IMG/VR virus record: IMGVR_UViG_3300039047_000098
Span: 1 to 25,883 of that record
Direction: 5' to 3' (one strand)
Source of the DNA: a virus
Length of the DNA stretch: 25,883 bases
In this document: positions 5,436-11,134 of the stretch, piece after piece
Layout: the number at the start of each line of letters is the position of its first letter
How positions within the stretch are numbered: position 1 is the stretch's first letter
Translations under genes and position numbers: made by a program
Notes under the pieces: generated by a model
What the model was told of the DNA's origin: nothing
The model's input: the letters and a program-made list of their open reading frames with translations, nothing else
Database searches by the model: none

Positions 5436-6629
5436 TTACCACTCTATTGTGTTTGCTTTGCCTTTGAAACCATACCTGTATTCAATGGGGTACATAATTC
5501 CGTCAAGAAAGTGTGATAAAGTTTCTGTTTTCAAAATATGTCCATTTTCTAATGTTGTTAATTCAAGATCTCTAATTGTGTTTTTACATTTAGGATCTAT
5601 AAAAAGCTTTGTTTTACCTCTTGCATCTCCCAGCATTCTGTTTAATGCATTTAATCTGTCTTTCTGTGTCGGGTTTGCTTTTCTACTAATCACTGTAAAT
5701 CCTGCTTCACGCAATATACTATGATCAGACTTTGTGCTATTGCTTGTTCTTGCTTTCCCTGCTGGATCTGGGTACACTGGCACATTAGGTGCAACTTTTT
5801 TCATCATTAAAGCTAATTCAAAAGTATTTGAGTTTTGTAAGCCAATCTCATCAAATACATAAACTTCGCCTTTTGTATTTTCACACATTAATATTGCCGT
5901 CATGTAGCTTGATACACCAAAGTCTATACCCCAAAAAAGTCTAGGTGTTTTATCCATTTCTTTCACATGTATATTTCTGTCAAAGTTGTATGCACATCTA
6001 TTCGCTGCTGTTTCAAAACTTGCTTCATATTCCTGTCTAAAGGTTTTCGGGTCCAAGTTTTTTTTAGCACTGTCTATTTCTTCTGCGGAAATAAACCCGC
6101 CGTCAATTGTAGTAAATTGCCAACTCTTATAGTCTGCGTTATCGCTTTGTCCTTTAACATACATATCGTAAAAATGATTTTGTATTCCTGTTGGTGTACC
6201 GACAAACAATGCTTGTCCCTTAGTTTCTGCTAACATGGGCTGAACGATCTCTCCCCATACATTTGGTTTCATATAAGCATATTCATCTAATACTACTCGA
6301 TTAAGACTGACACCTCTAATGTTGTCCTCTTTGTCAGCTCCCTTTAATTCTATTTTAGCCCCATTATTAAGAGTTATTGACAATTCAGACTCATTTACCT
6401 TAACATCTTTTCCTGCAAAAATTCTTTTAACCAAAGCCCAAGCTACCATTTTAGCTTGTCTATAACTTGGATAAATTATCCAGCGTCTTTCATTTGGTTT
6501 TAATTCAGTATGTAAAAGCCATATCAACGAAAAGAAAGTTTTGCCCCACCTGCGACCACAAACCAAAATTTTGTATCTTGATTTATCGTGCAATATAGAC
6601 TTTCTTGTGTCATCAATCTTCCACTTCAT
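5436..6629 (-). CDS. terL: Terminase large subunit (TerL)
   Basis: A 397-residue packaging motor from the ATG at 6629; a TTG 9 bases upstream is a weaker alternative. The N-terminal ATPase shows Walker A CGRRWGKT (Lys30), Walker B VVLDE (residues 112-116) and a coupling motif VGTPTG (143-148). The C-terminal RNase H-like nuclease begins at FWGIDFGVSSY with the catalytic Asp236, and further acidic positions follow, including the Pro-Asp of VYPDPAG. It translocates DNA into the procapsid through the portal and cuts the concatemer. The gene overlaps the TerS-like gene by 17 bases and lies 11 bases before the portal start. The packaging type (pac or cos) cannot be told from this sequence. Confidence 0.95.
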   Translation of the reverse strand: MKWKIDDTRKSILHDKSRYKILVCGRRWGKTFFSLIWLLHTELKPNERRWIIYPSYRQAKMVAWALVKRIFAGKDVKVNESELSITLNNGAKIELKGADKEDNIRGVSLNRVVLDEYAYMKPNVWGEIVQPMLAETKGQALFVGTPTGIQNHFYDMYVKGQSDNADYKSWQFTTIDGGFISAEEIDSAKKNLDPKTFRQEYEASFETAANRCAYNFDRNIHVKEMDKTPRLFWGIDFGVSSYMTAILMCENTKGEVYVFDEIGLQNSNTFELALMMKKVAPNVPVYPDPAGKARTSNSTKSDHSILREAGFTVISRKANPTQKDRLNALNRMLGDARGKTKLFIDPKCKNTIRDLELTTLENGHILKTETLSHFLDGIMYPIEYRYGFKGKANTIEW

Positions 6630-6903
6630 CAATATCAAACACTTTTATTGGATCTTCATTTACCTCGTGAATACCGACAGTCTGTTTTGGTTTACCCTCA
6701 AGCCTGTCTGCTATGAAATGAACAGCCCAGCTTTCGCCCTTGACTGCAAAATCAAATACTTTACGCATAATAAACTCTAATTTATCAGCATCAGTTCCTT
6801 TGACTTCTTCAGATCCTATTTTTTTTAACAAACTATTTAATGTTGTTGTGCCTTTTGGTCGCCCTTTTGGATTACCTGACTGTCCTTTTTTAAACTTCGC
6901 CAT
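6613..6903 (-). CDS. Small terminase-like protein (DUF5681-type N-terminus)
   Basis: A 96-residue protein directly upstream of TerL. The N-terminus FKKGQSGNPKGRPKG is the signature of the DUF5681 domain often found at the start of phage small-terminase-like or DNA-binding proteins. A helical middle follows (LEFIMRKVFDFAVKGESWAVHFIADRLEGKPKQT), whose DRLEGKPKQ phrase is common in such terminase partners, then an acidic tail. Synteny supports a role in recognising the phage genome for packaging. No separate HTH can be pointed to with certainty. Its end overlaps the TerL start, so translation is probably coupled. Confidence 0.8.
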   Translation of the reverse strand: MAKFKKGQSGNPKGRPKGTTTLNSLLKKIGSEEVKGTDADKLEFIMRKVFDFAVKGESWAVHFIADRLEGKPKQTVGIHEVNEDPIKVFDIDEVED

Positions 6904-6919: not shown

Positions 6920-7453
6920 TTAAAACAGGAATTTTATAACTTTATCAGCTATTTCCCCTGCTTTCTGTTTATCCGTTATTTGAATTACTTCCAAATCGGG
7001 TTTCAAACACTCATCACTGAGTATATTATTTATCTTTGTCTGCCTAGACTTTTTAAACTTTTCTGACTGAGTATCATTTCTTTCCTCATGTCTTTTTTCT
7101 AATGTTTTCTTATCAAGATCTAAAACAATGAACTTCTGCTCATATTTGTCCTGTAAGTGTAATAAATTCTTTCTAGTAAACAGCCTATCGCCCTCAAATA
7201 GAACATTATAGTCTGTAATCTGTAAAAACTTCTCATAATCTTTTTGCACTGCCATAGAAAGCTTGTCAGTCCCGCCAAAAGTATCATTTTGCTGGTAAAT
7301 GCCAAGTATTGCTGTGTCGCCTGATATATAGCCCCTGAGAAGCCCATATTTAAAAAATTTCGGCTCATCCTCCACTTTGTTTAATATTTCTCTTACAAGT
7401 GTTGTTTTTCCAGAGCATGGCACACCGCCTATTGCTACAACTCTTTTAACCAT
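6920..7453 (-). CDS. P-loop kinase, predicted hydroxymethylpyrimidine-DNA kinase
   Basis: A 177-residue P-loop NTPase opening VKRVVAIGGVPCSGKTTL, with Walker A G10-VPCS-G15-K16-T17. A strand ending in FEGDR (Asp/Arg at the expected catalytic position) and a basic lid-like segment (KTLEKRHEERND, followed by SEKFKKSRQTK) give it the shape of a small nucleotide- or base-phosphorylating kinase. Kinases of this kind are known partners in phage thymine hypermodification, where they phosphorylate 5-hydroxymethyluracil in DNA. Here it is the last gene of an operon with a dioxygenase, a pyrophosphorylase-like protein, GATase and GNAT, and it overlaps the preceding gene by 19 bases. The substrate is inferred from the neighbours; a deoxynucleoside or tRNA-end kinase cannot be excluded from sequence alone. 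Confidence 0.75.
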   Translation of the reverse strand: MVKRVVAIGGVPCSGKTTLVREILNKVEDEPKFFKYGLLRGYISGDTAILGIYQQNDTFGGTDKLSMAVQKDYEKFLQITDYNVLFEGDRLFTRKNLLHLQDKYEQKFIVLDLDKKTLEKRHEERNDTQSEKFKKSRQTKINNILSDECLKPDLEVIQITDKQKAGEIADKVIKFLF

Positions 7454-8310
7454 TGTTTATCATATGTTTCGTTCCTGAAATCCCATAAAACATTCCAATT
7501 AACCCCGTCTGAAACTAGATCTTGCATTTTTTCTATTTCTTTTCGCTGACGATCTATGTAATAACCTACATATCTTTTGCCCTTTTTGAACTTTTTAAAA
7601 GCACAAAGTGTAGTTTCTATGTTCCAAATGTTTGTATGTTGTATATCAAGCTGCTCTATTTCTTCTTTAACAAGCTCGAATTGGTATTGTAAATACCCTA
7701 ATTCATTTTTATTTAATCTTTTTTTCTTGCCGTGCGTATCTAAATCAAATCTTTCAATGCTGTAAACTAAACCATTTCTACAGCTTTCGGCATTTTTCAG
7801 GTCTAAATATGTTGGCTCTAAATCAAAATCTGTTAAAACATTTACCATTTCTAAATAAATGAACATAGTAAATCTGCCAAAGTAGTGTATTTTCATTAGA
7901 TCCTGATAACAATTATCATATGTCATCTGTCTGTTTGGCTGTTTTAAAGAATTAAAATATTCCTCTTGTGTTAAGCCGTTTAACAAGCTTTTATATGATT
8001 TAAATATATTTACAAACTCATTAAAGCTTTTTACTTTCAGACGATCTGTTTGAAAGATAGTTTTGTGCTTGTTGCTATCCCACCACCTACTTAACCTGTC
8101 CTCATCAACATTTTCAAAATCTGGAAACTCATTGTATATGTAATACACTGTGCTTCCTGAATAACAACAAGCATATAAAAAAGCTAACCAATATCTTTGT
8201 TCAATGTTTAGCTCAAATCTATTGCTGATATATTTCAGACAATCATTAGCTGGATCAATGTCTTTCGCTTCTGAGGATCTTATGTGGTAATCAATATATT
8301 CATTTACCAT
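7435..8310 (-). CDS. Alpha-glutamyl/putrescinyl thymine pyrophosphorylase or amino acid:DNA transferase-like protein
   Basis: A 291-residue, largely alpha-helical protein from ATG 8310 (a TTG two codons upstream is possible). The segment NRFELNIEQRYWLAFLYACCYSGSTVYYIYNEFPDF (about residues 30-65) matches my memory of the helical pyrophosphorylase/amino-acid:DNA-transferase families that replace an activated 5-(pyrophospho)hydroxymethyl group of thymine with an amine. A second block follows, WWDSNKHKTIFQTDRLKVKS, which resembles the basic, trypsin-like spacing of the same family. It is fused in tight overlap with GNAT upstream and the kinase downstream, the partners expected of this chemistry. 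The call rests on recalled sequence character and context; exact clade and nucleophile (amino acid, ammonia, polyamine) are not determinable here. Confidence 0.65.
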   Translation of the reverse strand: MVNEYIDYHIRSSEAKDIDPANDCLKYISNRFELNIEQRYWLAFLYACCYSGSTVYYIYNEFPDFENVDEDRLSRWWDSNKHKTIFQTDRLKVKSFNEFVNIFKSYKSLLNGLTQEEYFNSLKQPNRQMTYDNCYQDLMKIHYFGRFTMFIYLEMVNVLTDFDLEPTYLDLKNAESCRNGLVYSIERFDLDTHGKKKRLNKNELGYLQYQFELVKEEIEQLDIQHTNIWNIETTLCAFKKFKKGKRYVGYYIDRQRKEIEKMQDLVSDGVNWNVLWDFRNETYDKQWLKEL

Positions 8311-8717
8311 TGCCAAATATTCTGTTCAACACCTTTACGGGTTTTTGTTTTTCCTACTTTTGTCATACCGATCTTTTCATAAAACCTATTGCCAATCTCA
8401 TTATCACAATTACATTTTAACATAAGCGGTCTAGGTAAATTTTCTACAATATATCTAGCTATGCCGTGTCTTTTAAAATCATCTAATACAGCTATCTCAT
8501 GAATTATCCAGCTGCTGTATTTTTTACTAAAACCATATCTGACAAAGCCCTTATCTTCACAAATCAAATACTTGTAGTTTGTACTTGAAGTCAAATACTT
8601 ATCCCATACTTGATATAAATTAAAAGATCCTATGTGTTCTTTGTCTTGTTTGTAAAGTTGTTTTAATAAGTCTTCGTCTGCTCGTGTAGCATGTCTTAAT
8701 TTATATTTAAATTTCAT
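8304..8717 (-). CDS. GNAT-family N-acyltransferase
   Basis: A 137-residue GNAT-fold protein. It has the core strand and acyl-CoA loop IIHEIAVLDDFKRHGIARYIV, with the pyrophosphate-binding R83-H-G-I-A turn, and the later motif LKCNCDNEIGNRFYEKIGMTKVG, which is the usual asparagine/fYek-Gf segment. GNATs move an acetyl or other acyl group from CoA to an amine. In this operon the natural acceptor is an amine installed on a modified base; GNATs also occur in known thymine-hypermodification clusters, and Mom of phage Mu is a diverged GNAT, so other base chemistry is possible. It overlaps the GATase by 11 bases and the next gene by 7. Confidence 0.85.
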   Translation of the reverse strand: MKFKYKLRHATRADEDLLKQLYKQDKEHIGSFNLYQVWDKYLTSSTNYKYLICEDKGFVRYGFSKKYSSWIIHEIAVLDDFKRHGIARYIVENLPRPLMLKCNCDNEIGNRFYEKIGMTKVGKTKTRKGVEQNIWQW

Positions 8718-9321
8718 ATATCTTATTAGCTTCTAACGGCTTGGGCATAAAAGTATTATCAACTCTTTTAAAAATATCTCTTGTTGAAGCTACAAACTTT
8801 GCATTATCATACTCTAATATCCAGCAAGGTCTTTTTTTATTTCTAATTACAAATAAGTTTTCTTTTTCATCAAGAATAATACCTGCAAAACTTCCCCTAA
8901 TATCATTTACAAATCTTTCAATAAGCTTTTTATCATTACCGCATCTTTGAATTAATATTTCTCCGTCATTATCGGTTTCCATAAAAATATTGTATGCATT
9001 TTCCATTTGTTTTTTGGTACGCATGTCAATAACACCATTGAAAACCAAAGACATATTGTCTATATGTATTGGCTGATTATTTTTATGATTTTTAAAATCG
9101 CCAGAAGTAGAGTACCTATTATGATAAATAATCTTATTAGTTAAAGGCAATTTAACCTCTTTAAGATCGTGGTATTTTCTTGTTATTAATTTTTTATCTT
9201 TAACAAAGCTATACCCAAAACTATGTATGCCCCTGATTGAGCTTTCTGCTATGATATCCTGTAAAATCTGTATATGATTTTGTTTAGGGTTTTCACAGCT
9301 ATAACCTACAATTCCGCACAT
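8707..9321 (-). CDS. Stand-alone class II glutamine amidotransferase
   Basis: A 204-residue protein starting MCGIVGY, so that Cys2 becomes the N-terminal nucleophile after Met removal. The ATG at 9321 is required for this; it overlaps the upstream TGA as TGATG. Family hallmarks follow: HNRYSTSGD (residues 67-75, with Arg69 for glutamine binding, replacing the usual HTRWAT), FNGVI (94-98, replacing HNG) and ETDNDGE (115-121, the usual TD-x-E-like motif). It would release ammonia from glutamine, or bind glutamine as a gamma-glutamyl donor. No synthetase or isomerase domain is fused, so the partner acceptor must be another protein, plausibly the pyrophosphorylase-like neighbour. The ntn-hydrolase fold call is strong; the acceptor is inference. 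Confidence 0.9.
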   Translation of the reverse strand: MCGIVGYSCENPKQNHIQILQDIIAESSIRGIHSFGYSFVKDKKLITRKYHDLKEVKLPLTNKIIYHNRYSTSGDFKNHKNNQPIHIDNMSLVFNGVIDMRTKKQMENAYNIFMETDNDGEILIQRCGNDKKLIERFVNDIRGSFAGIILDEKENLFVIRNKKRPCWILEYDNAKFVASTRDIFKRVDNTFMPKPLEANKIYEI

Positions 9322-10202
9322 CAATAAAGACTTTCCCCCGATCTAATTTGTCTTTGTTTTGCAAACTCTTGTTCTTCAACAGCTGTTCCACATTTTTGCA
9401 TATTATGTCTGTAATACATTACTAGTGATATTCTTGTAGCTTTTTCATCTACTTTTGTTATTGGTGTATTTCCGTGCCATTGATGAACATCACACAACAA
9501 TAAATCACAATTTTGCATATCAAAAGCGACTGCCCATTGCGGAATAACAAAATATCCGCCCTTATACAAGCCCTCTCTTAATACAACTAAATTTCCAAAA
9601 CCTTTTTCAAAGTCCCCTTTATCTGTGTGCACTGCTGTCTGCCAATTTTTATTTACAGTAATTGTTGTGAAAGCGGTGTCTTTTATAACAAAATCTTGAG
9701 CTGTATTGTCAGCAACTTCTCTTTGTAAAGCATAATGTTCAGGCATTAATTCAGAATATTTATTATCGACAAACTTTATAATCCCATAAGCTTTTTTAAA
9801 TTTATCAAACTCTTTTTGATTAAAAGCTGTTTGTCTGCAATATGGGAATCTAACATTTCTATCAAAATAGCCAATAATACCGCTATTAACCTGATCCCCG
9901 TGATTAGTATTTGATATTGTGCCGTCAGTTTTAAGTCTTTTTCTGCCCTGTTTGCCTGAAGCTTTATTTCTATTATTTGTTGCTCCAGCTGCTGATTTTA
10001 AATTTTGGTATGCTGTTTTTGCTATATTTGCTGGTATAACATTTTTTCTAAATTTTGCAATACAATTACCTGAAACTTCGTCATATACATCTGCGTCATA
10101 ATCAATAAGAATTTTATAGCTTGTGTCATTCAGCAATGCCCCAGCTAGTTCACTAGCTTCTTTATCTGTTAATTCAGGTTTTAAATATATTTCTCTAGCC
10201 AT
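9321..10202 (-). CDS. TET/JBP-type 2-oxoglutarate/Fe(II) DNA dioxygenase
   Basis: A 293-residue protein with the TET/JBP arrangement. The iron ligands are H192-T-D194 in the phrase WQTAVHTDKGDF, and distal H243 in DVHQWHGNTP; R257 in ATRISLVMYYR would bind 2-oxoglutarate. Upstream, FPYCRQTAFN (119-128) is the conserved Cys-Arg turn seen before the double-stranded beta helix in this family. The LVVLREGLYKGGYFVIPQWAVAFDMQNCDLLLCD stretch is a classic beta-helix core. Members oxidise the 5-methyl of thymine (JBP) or 5-methylcytosine (TET) in DNA. No cytosine-5 methyltransferase is visible in the window, which favours thymine, but one could lie outside. The N-terminal 110 residues carry a basic linker (ASGKQGRKRLK). 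Confidence 0.85.
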   Translation of the reverse strand: MAREIYLKPELTDKEASELAGALLNDTSYKILIDYDADVYDEVSGNCIAKFRKNVIPANIAKTAYQNLKSAAGATNNRNKASGKQGRKRLKTDGTISNTNHGDQVNSGIIGYFDRNVRFPYCRQTAFNQKEFDKFKKAYGIIKFVDNKYSELMPEHYALQREVADNTAQDFVIKDTAFTTITVNKNWQTAVHTDKGDFEKGFGNLVVLREGLYKGGYFVIPQWAVAFDMQNCDLLLCDVHQWHGNTPITKVDEKATRISLVMYYRHNMQKCGTAVEEQEFAKQRQIRSGESLY

Positions 10203-10785
10203 TTGTCAATTTCTCTAATGCTTTGAATATTGTATCAGTCAAATTATCTGTTCCAAATTCTTCTCTAAGTTGCAACTCCATTTTTTTGAAAACAGGCTCT
10301 GTATCGTCATTTAAAAACAATTGTATCATGCGTACATGACTTGATTCAGCTTCCTCTGGGTATTCTATAGTTTCATTGTAGTTGTTAGAAACTTCAAATG
10401 TAAGTTTTGACTCAACACCTAGTTCTTGCTCTGCAAAACCCCAATCTAAAAGCTGTTCTGTGCCAAAATTATTTGCTAGCATGTCCCAGTCCCAATCTCC
10501 AGTATTTTTATTTAATCTGATATTTAGTTCTCTTTCTTCTTCCTCAGAAAGATCTAATTCAAGGCATGGTACTTTCTTAATGTTTAACATTTTAGCAACT
10601 TTCACTCTTTGGTGTCCGCCAATAATAATGTTTTTTCTGTCTTTGTTTTTGTTTATTAAAACAGGATCTACAAAGCCAAAATTTTCTAATGATTCTTTTA
10701 ATTCTTCGTAAGCTTTTTCTGACAATTGTCTTGGATTGTAATCAGCTTCTATTAATTCGTTCGGGTGTTTTTCAATTATCTTCAT
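10195..10785 (-). CDS. ParB/Srx-domain protein without a methyltransferase domain
   Basis: A 196-residue protein whose first 100 residues form a ParB/sulfiredoxin-type domain: NPR at 17-19, the FGFVDPVLIN strand and IIIGGHQR (GGHQR at 56-60, the nucleotide-binding motif). The phrase NTGDWDWDMLANNFGTEQLLDWGF follows, typical of ParB-like domains attached to phage DNA methyltransferases, but here the chain ends in an unrelated acidic-basic region. ATG 10785 is preferred to 10788 because AGG then sits 5 bases away. Related domains can bind CTP or ATP, nick DNA or phosphorylate serine. Its second-in-line place in the modification operon suggests it targets or primes the base-modifying enzymes. 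The exact reaction is unknown. Confidence 0.8.
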   Translation of the reverse strand: MKIIEKHPNELIEADYNPRQLSEKAYEELKESLENFGFVDPVLINKNKDRKNIIIGGHQRVKVAKMLNIKKVPCLELDLSEEEERELNIRLNKNTGDWDWDMLANNFGTEQLLDWGFAEQELGVESKLTFEVSNNYNETIEYPEEAESSHVRMIQLFLNDDTEPVFKKMELQLREEFGTDNLTDTIFKALEKLTNG

Positions 10786-11014
10786 CATATCCTATGCTGT
10801 AATTTTCTTCATCAAAAGTAGAATGTGCGTCCCATTCTTCGTGCGGTGTATGATCCTCGTCGCCGTGTGGGTCTGCTAAAACTATGTTTTCTATATTACC
10901 TTGACTGAACTTTCGCATATTTTTTGTTTTATTGTATGCTTCATGTCCAACATTACTGTTTTCTACTTCTTGATCAATTTGATTAAGTATTTTGTCAATT
11001 TTTGAGTCCGTCAT
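10772..11014 (-). CDS. Small acidic protein leading the modification operon, unknown
   Basis: An 80-residue protein with a strongly acidic second half (ADPHGDEDHTPHEEWDAHSTFDEENYSIGYDEDN spans about residues 47-80), containing several His, Asp and Glu. The first half is neutral to basic. It is the first gene after the promoter at 11106-11134 and overlaps the ParB-like gene. There is no clear ribosome binding site; the leader is AT-rich. I do not recognise a family. It could be a DNA mimic, a metal-binding accessory, or a regulator of the operon; nothing in the sequence decides this. Confidence 0.6.
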   Translation of the reverse strand: MTDSKIDKILNQIDQEVENSNVGHEAYNKTKNMRKFSQGNIENIVLADPHGDEDHTPHEEWDAHSTFDEENYSIGYDEDN

Positions 11015-11105: not shown

Positions 11106-11134
11106 ATTATAACCCTAAAATTTGGGGCGGTAAA
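11106..11134 (-). promoter_or_regulatory. Candidate sigma70-type promoter for the modification operon
   Basis: On the minus strand, TTTACC (11134-11129) and a perfect TATAAT (11111-11106) are separated by 17 bases. The -35 matches 4 of 6 positions of TTGACA. Transcription would start near 11099 and run leftward into the acidic protein and the modification genes, leaving an 85-base AT-rich leader. Confidence 0.5.

Follow-up and report, generated by a model that had tools for sequence, protein, structure and literature searches.

A run of seven overlapping open reading frames (ORFs) was found on the minus strand of a 25,883-nucleotide stretch of viral DNA (the window; positions 1 to 25,883 of IMG/VR record IMGVR_UViG_3300039047_000098, a linear fragment of 29,151 bases from an uncultivated virus), and on balance this run is probably a phage operon for post-replicative hypermodification of thymine. 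Six of the seven ORFs were conserved functional genes: P-loop kinase, amino acid:DNA transferase (ADDT), GNAT acyltransferase, class II glutamine amidotransferase (GATase), TET/JBP dioxygenase, and ParB-domain protein. In the stepwise model, the TET/JBP enzyme would act on phage DNA after replication, hydroxylating the methyl group of thymine to give 5-hydroxymethyluracil (5hmU), and the kinase would phosphorylate the resulting hydroxymethyl group. GATase would then hydrolyze glutamine, and ADDT would let ammonia, not a free amino acid, displace the phosphate, giving 5-aminomethyluracil by a PurF-like logic; finally, GNAT would acylate the amine, probably to 5-acetamidomethyluracil. The ParB protein would recruit or position these enzymes on DNA, and modification would take place late, before packaging, and shield phage DNA from host nucleases. 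We infer the acetyl group, the role of ParB, the protective function, the order of steps, and the final base.

The TET/JBP protein matched PF12851 in a profile search (E = 1e-24). Its iron triad (HxD...H; H192, D194, and H243) and the 2-oxoglutarate (2OG)-binding arginine (R257) were invariant across 37 sequences, and its structural model (pLDDT 86) matched the folds of TET2, NgTET1, CMD1, and CcTet with a probability of 1.00; it is predicted to be a thymine 5-hydroxylase acting on DNA. ADDT matched PF18724 (E = 3.9e-19; 69.7 bits against a gathering cut-off of 26.2) and, by profile against PDB, 25qc (E = 1e-11) and the glycinyltransferase 8z2m (E = 8e-8). The sole high-probability folds for its model (pLDDT 94.8) were 8z2m and 8z2n (probability 1.00, E ~2e-3, TM ~0.6), namely, the 5-phosphomethyl-deoxyuridine (dU) glycinyltransferase PUGT (PDB title '5-PmdU glycinyltransferase'). 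As single sequences, neither TET nor ADDT gave a PDB match; their profiles did. The translation start of ADDT is probably ATG 8310 because relatives begin there, and a scan of GTDB genomes with this protein returned no bacterial relative. ADDT is predicted to install an amine on phosphorylated 5hmU, and the nucleophile may be ammonia.

GATase matched PF13537 (GATase_7) above cut-off (E = 1.3e-9), its catalytic Cys was kept over 10 divergent members, as were the HxRYST, NG, and NDG motifs, and the models of GlmS and PurF aligned from their first residue on its N-terminal Cys. The closest solved relative was PurF (E = 1.3e-7, profile against PDB). Since a class II GATase needs Cys directly after Met, its start is most likely ATG 9321, forming an ATGA overlap with the TET stop codon, and not TTG 9324, from which the ORF had been read. 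Weak phmmer matches of the single sequence to a bacterial exotoxin in PDB (E = 1e-4 to 1e-3) were judged to be chance because the GATase profile search yielded PurF and no toxin.

The kinase matched AAA_18 (E = 2.7e-6), weakly Ploopntkinase3 (E = 1.4e-4), and PHROG_800 (E = 4.7e-13), a family that includes gp61c of Salmonella phage ViI, itself a PF18748 5-hmdU DNA kinase (E = 2.6e-116). Direct comparison with gp61c by hhalign gave E = 4e-6, and the P-loop, GTDKLS, and EGDR motifs were conserved; the profile search gave no PF18748 match for the window kinase, which shares PHROG_800 with the PF18748 member gp61c. It is predicted to be a 5-hydroxymethyl-dU DNA kinase, a remote homologue of HMUDK. 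GNAT matched PF13673 (E = 8e-6). The ParB protein matched PF02195 (E = 5.5e-9) and also phage DNA methyltransferases over their ParB part (PHROG_498, E = 3e-33; PADLOC MTase_II, E = 5e-22); ParBc genes adjoin another phage base-modifying enzyme (PMC12783734).

A preliminary description of this DNA had listed seven leftward, overlapping genes, and all of these ORFs were present on the minus strand with overlaps of 4-19 nt. Profile searches, which it had proposed as a check, placed TET, ADDT, GATase, GNAT, and the kinase in the families named there, and the ParB-like gene was likewise borne out. Of the name pyrophosphorylase/amino-acid:DNA-transferase-like, the ADDT half held (PF18724, PUGT fold) and the aGPT pyrophosphorylase half did not.

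When IMG/VR was scanned with the TET and ADDT of the window, 47 and 80 loci were returned, respectively, containing 74 distinct ADDT proteins; among the 68 with upstream sequence, a GATase gene was found in 65 and a TET gene in 67. The order ParB-TET-GATase-GNAT-ADDT-kinase extended down to ~66% TET identity, and the same order without GNAT was found in 6 loci. Two other orders were ParB-kinase-GATase-ADDT-TET (20 loci by profile) and ParB-GATase-ADDT-kinase-TET (3 loci), both with TETs only ~21-24% identical to that of the window. The profile search for the kinase missed the former group, and reading these loci revealed a different P-loop protein in all 21 readable cases covering the stretch. 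The three orders thereby carried TETs of two clades and two unlike kinases. The same gene order in many divergent viral contigs excludes chance, and retention of the set through rearrangement and the replacement of two members indicates a functional unit rather than descent alone. GNAT was kept in one lineage, and was missing from the 6 cassettes mentioned above and from both other orders. The identity proposed for it stood, with the amendment that GNAT is optional and dispensable; GATase is nearly constant. Of the 68 loci with a downstream terminase, 64 had the gene for the large subunit (5436-6903 in the window) starting less than 1 kb beyond the cassette (median, 342 bases), from which modification is probably late, near packaging.

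Two loci (L014 and L026) bear on the nitrogen source: a TET (66-69% identical) and a kinase (~40%) of the same kinds as in the window flank another block in place of GATase-GNAT-ADDT. In L014, where scores were measured (L026 is a close homologue), the ADDT of this block matched the glycinyltransferase 8z2m (E = 1.5e-6), and a second protein matched the flavin-dependent lyase 8z2o (E = 8.5e-8; also 8z79). As summarized in PMC11946847, the glycinyltransferase and flavin-dependent lyase make aminomethyl-uracil through glycine and flavin (Wen et al. 2024). Therefore, the GATase-ADDT pair occupies the place of an aminomethyl-forming route. PurF takes ammonia from glutamine and uses it to displace pyrophosphate at a carbon of a sugar. 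We give ammonia as the nucleophile on ADDT an even chance; the fuller proposal, that GATase and ADDT channel ammonia onto phosphorylated TET-made 5hmU by direct amination, as an alternative to glycine and flavin-lyase, in three cassette types, is tentative and stands slightly below this.

Regarding the substrate, a ThyA-family (thymidylate-synthase-like) dUMP hydroxymethylase was found in none of 44 relative records and not in the window's own record. A C5-methyltransferase was also absent from the latter and from 41 of the 44 relatives, complete phages among them. The lack of the former and near-absence of the latter make thymine in finished DNA the likely substrate. These counts, together with swaps involving homologues of solved thymidine-hypermodification enzymes, favour the earlier proposal that the hydroxymethyl group is made in DNA by the dioxygenase, and a post-replicative thymine pathway is considered likely. 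The TETs themselves differed at the eighth residue after the 2OG-binding Arg. In a Melnitz-type clade (71 loci), a C5-methyltransferase lies immediately upstream of TET in nearly all loci, and this residue was Asp in 52 of 53 readable C5-methyltransferase-linked TETs; among ADDT-linked TETs it was Arg in 75 and Leu in 26 (loci fetched twice being counted twice). In the profile alignment it corresponds to a His of TET2, which we take to be H1904, a position that presumably contacts 5-methylcytosine (5mC) in TET2 and NgTet. It would make sense if Asp served as an acceptor for the amino group of cytosine and Arg as a donor for O4 of thymine. The fifth residue after the first iron-binding His was rejected as a discriminator, with Asp in both main clades.

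Several points weigh against this reading of the operon. To our knowledge, all characterised ADDTs use amino acids, and GATase could serve another acceptor. Thymine may accordingly be hypermodified as in ViI, M6, and PaMx11, by an ADDT that installs a free amino acid, with GATase later amidating or altering it or supplying glutamate. This agrees with the PUGT fold of ADDT and with ADDT-family members for which no GATase was found in L014, L026, and Gordonia phage LittleMunchkin. However, the cassette has no ATP-dependent amide synthetase domain to put ammonia on a carboxylate, glutamate supply requires no dedicated glutaminase, and, whatever the gene order, GATase accompanies one ADDT clade; we regard the free-amino-acid route as unlikely, albeit the strongest competitor. 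A second set of points concerns cytosine: 3 of the 44 relatives had a C5-methyltransferase, in one case ~4 kb from the cassette, and Melnitz-type cassettes join a C5-methyltransferase and TET to a following kinase of the same family as that of the window, and, thus, the kinase alone is no proof of thymine. A host or phage C5-methyltransferase would then produce 5mC, TET would convert it to 5-hydroxymethylcytosine, and the kinase, ADDT, and GATase would follow. Since 41 of the relatives lacked the methyltransferase, ADDT homologues of known chemistry act on thymidine, and the TET residue pattern is unlike that of the methyltransferase-linked clade, cytosine is improbable as the target. The residue discriminator, in turn, rests on few clades, which are not independent events, and Leu, found in one clade, is uninformative; furthermore, genes beyond the 29-kb linear fragment cannot be fully excluded. 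The last alternative, that the cassette modifies a target other than phage DNA (host DNA, tRNA, or protein) or consists of unrelated neighbours, draws on the many acceptors of GNAT and GATase domains and on the indirect nature of the evidence for the substrate, but is very improbable, given that one gene set recurs in three orders with some members replaced by non-orthologous genes, that the ParB part is common to DNA methyltransferases, and that DNA substrates define the ADDT and HMUDK families.

Table 1. Features of the putative thymine hypermodification operon and its upstream region (positions in the window).
Feature	Position	Strand	Basis
P-loop kinase, remotely homologous to HMUDK, predicted to act on 5-hydroxymethyl-dU in DNA	6920..7453	-	AAA_18, PHROG_800, hhalign to ViI gp61c
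ADDT, predicted amine transfer onto phosphorylated 5hmU	7435..8316	-	PF18724, fold; likely start ATG 8310
GNAT acyltransferase, optional tailoring enzyme	8304..8717	-	PF13673
Stand-alone class II GATase domain, predicted ammonia supplier	8707..9321	-	PF13537; start most likely ATG 9321, Cys at position 2
TET/JBP dioxygenase of the Fe(II)/2OG type, predicted to 5-hydroxylate thymine in DNA	9321..10202	-	PF12851, invariant residues, fold
ParB_N-domain protein, predicted DNA-binding or recruiting partner	10195..10788	-	PF02195, PHROG_498, PADLOC MTase_II
Small acidic ORF, first of run, outside conserved core	10772..11014	-	no family
Possible sigma-70-like promoter TTTACC-17-TATAAT	11106..11134	-	10/12 consensus match, in 152-nt gap upstream of run; promoter-like matches overall near chance level

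The seventh ORF (80 amino acids), described earlier as an acidic member of the operon, was present as an ORF, had no family match in the profile search, and in the locus comparison was confined to the closest relatives (L005-L011); it is a lineage-specific extra and not part of the core. Around the cassette, genes for the terminase large subunit, major head protein, tape measure, Dam-type adenine methyltransferase, and NinG-like nuclease were found, and PADLOC reported no defence system. Between the cassette and terminase large subunit there is often just a small terminase-like gene, and the terminases differ among loci.

Several other loci and records merit mention. ParB-TET was followed by an FkbM-type methyltransferase in Pelagibacter phage HTVC112P (L003:5372-7594) and L049:4178-6484, where it perhaps O-methylates 5hmU, and by a conserved 186-amino acid protein of no family and then terminase in L032:2383-2943 (similar in L041). 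In L029:8948-11548 (also L028, L030, and L031), a TET of ~57-60% identity preceded a weakly glycosyltransferase-like gene, DUF2061, APS kinase, and nucleotidyltransferase; a sulfated-sugar base modification is possible. TET of Nonlabens phage P12024L (L002:7986-9614) adjoined a TET-associated glycosyltransferase (PF20691), and neither a C5-methyltransferase nor a ThyA-family gene was found in the complete genome. Marine phages (L054:2457-6537 and L059-L129) carried a C5-methyltransferase, TET, a protein of ~430 amino acids, and a kinase of the same family as that of the window, a possible kinase-based cytosine hypermodification. The sole bacterial relative in the GTDB scan with TET (42% identity; L214:8001-8918) was on a 40.7-kb contig of a betaproteobacterial metagenome-assembled genome; this contig may represent a prophage or a phage sequence binned with the bacterium. 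As for annotation, many phage records (Mycobacterium and other phages) label TET/JBP proteins as queuine tRNA-ribosyltransferase, DpdA-like, or SNF2 DNA repair protein, and PHROG_800 is named terminase small subunit despite containing the ViI gp61c kinase; other phage kinases, Cr30 gp114 (L137:38203-38865) among them, have come to bear this name as well.

The analysis defines a candidate minimal gene set of TET, kinase, GATase, and ADDT, and the TET residue that differs with and without a C5-methyltransferase partner is a candidate rule by which specificity for thymine or cytosine might be predicted. If the model is correct, small phages can hypermodify thymine in normally replicated DNA with an unchanged nucleotide pool, there is a second chemical route to aminomethyl-thymine, and a thymine-acting TET, 5hmU kinase, and ammonia-using DNA transferase would become available as DNA-labelling tools.

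Among known systems, the thymidine hypermodification of the PaMx11/M6 type (Lee et al. 2018, 2022; Wen et al. 2024) shares the ADDT-fold transferase and a P-loop kinase, predicted in the cassette to be a 5hmU kinase, acting post-replicatively on 5hmU. In that system, a thymidylate-synthase-like hydroxymethylase supplies 5hmU, which the polymerase incorporates, whereas TET would make it in DNA in the present cassette, and glycine and a flavin lyase stand where the cassette has a class II GATase. An acetyltransferase is reportedly also part of this post-replicative 5hmU modification in the 2022 work of Lee and colleagues. In the trypanosome base J pathway (JBP1/2), TET/JBP makes 5hmU in DNA, as predicted for the cassette; base J is then glucosylated, and the cassette continues instead with kinase, transferase, and GATase. 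Cytosine hypermodification by phage TET and C5-methyltransferase is said to have been described by Burke and colleagues in 2021. Phages of this (Melnitz) type have a TET of the same superfamily and sometimes a related kinase, but their methyltransferase adjoins TET and Asp follows the 2OG-binding Arg, in contrast to Arg/Leu in the cassette. Operons in which a TET/JBP-made hydroxymethyl pyrimidine feeds kinase and pyrophosphorylase/transferase enzymes were reportedly predicted by Iyer and colleagues in 2013; relative to these, the shuffling of gene order and flavin-lyase swap come from the present analysis. A five-gene set of Rhodococcus phage Tonitrus has been annotated as TET-initiated hypermodification (PMC11955845). 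In Tonitrus and LittleMunchkin, genes for ParB, TET-like, aGPT-Pplase2/ADDT, and 5-hmU kinase are adjacent, and the cassette has the same combination of ParB, TET, ADDT/Pplase, and kinase together; it differs in GATase, which was not reported for Tonitrus and not found by profiles near the LittleMunchkin set. A literature search on phage TET and ParB combined with GATase, which did not cover Iyer 2013, Lee 2022, or Wen 2024, found no description. TET-initiated hypermodification has, thus, already been predicted and annotated, and the GATase-containing set would be a variant of it.

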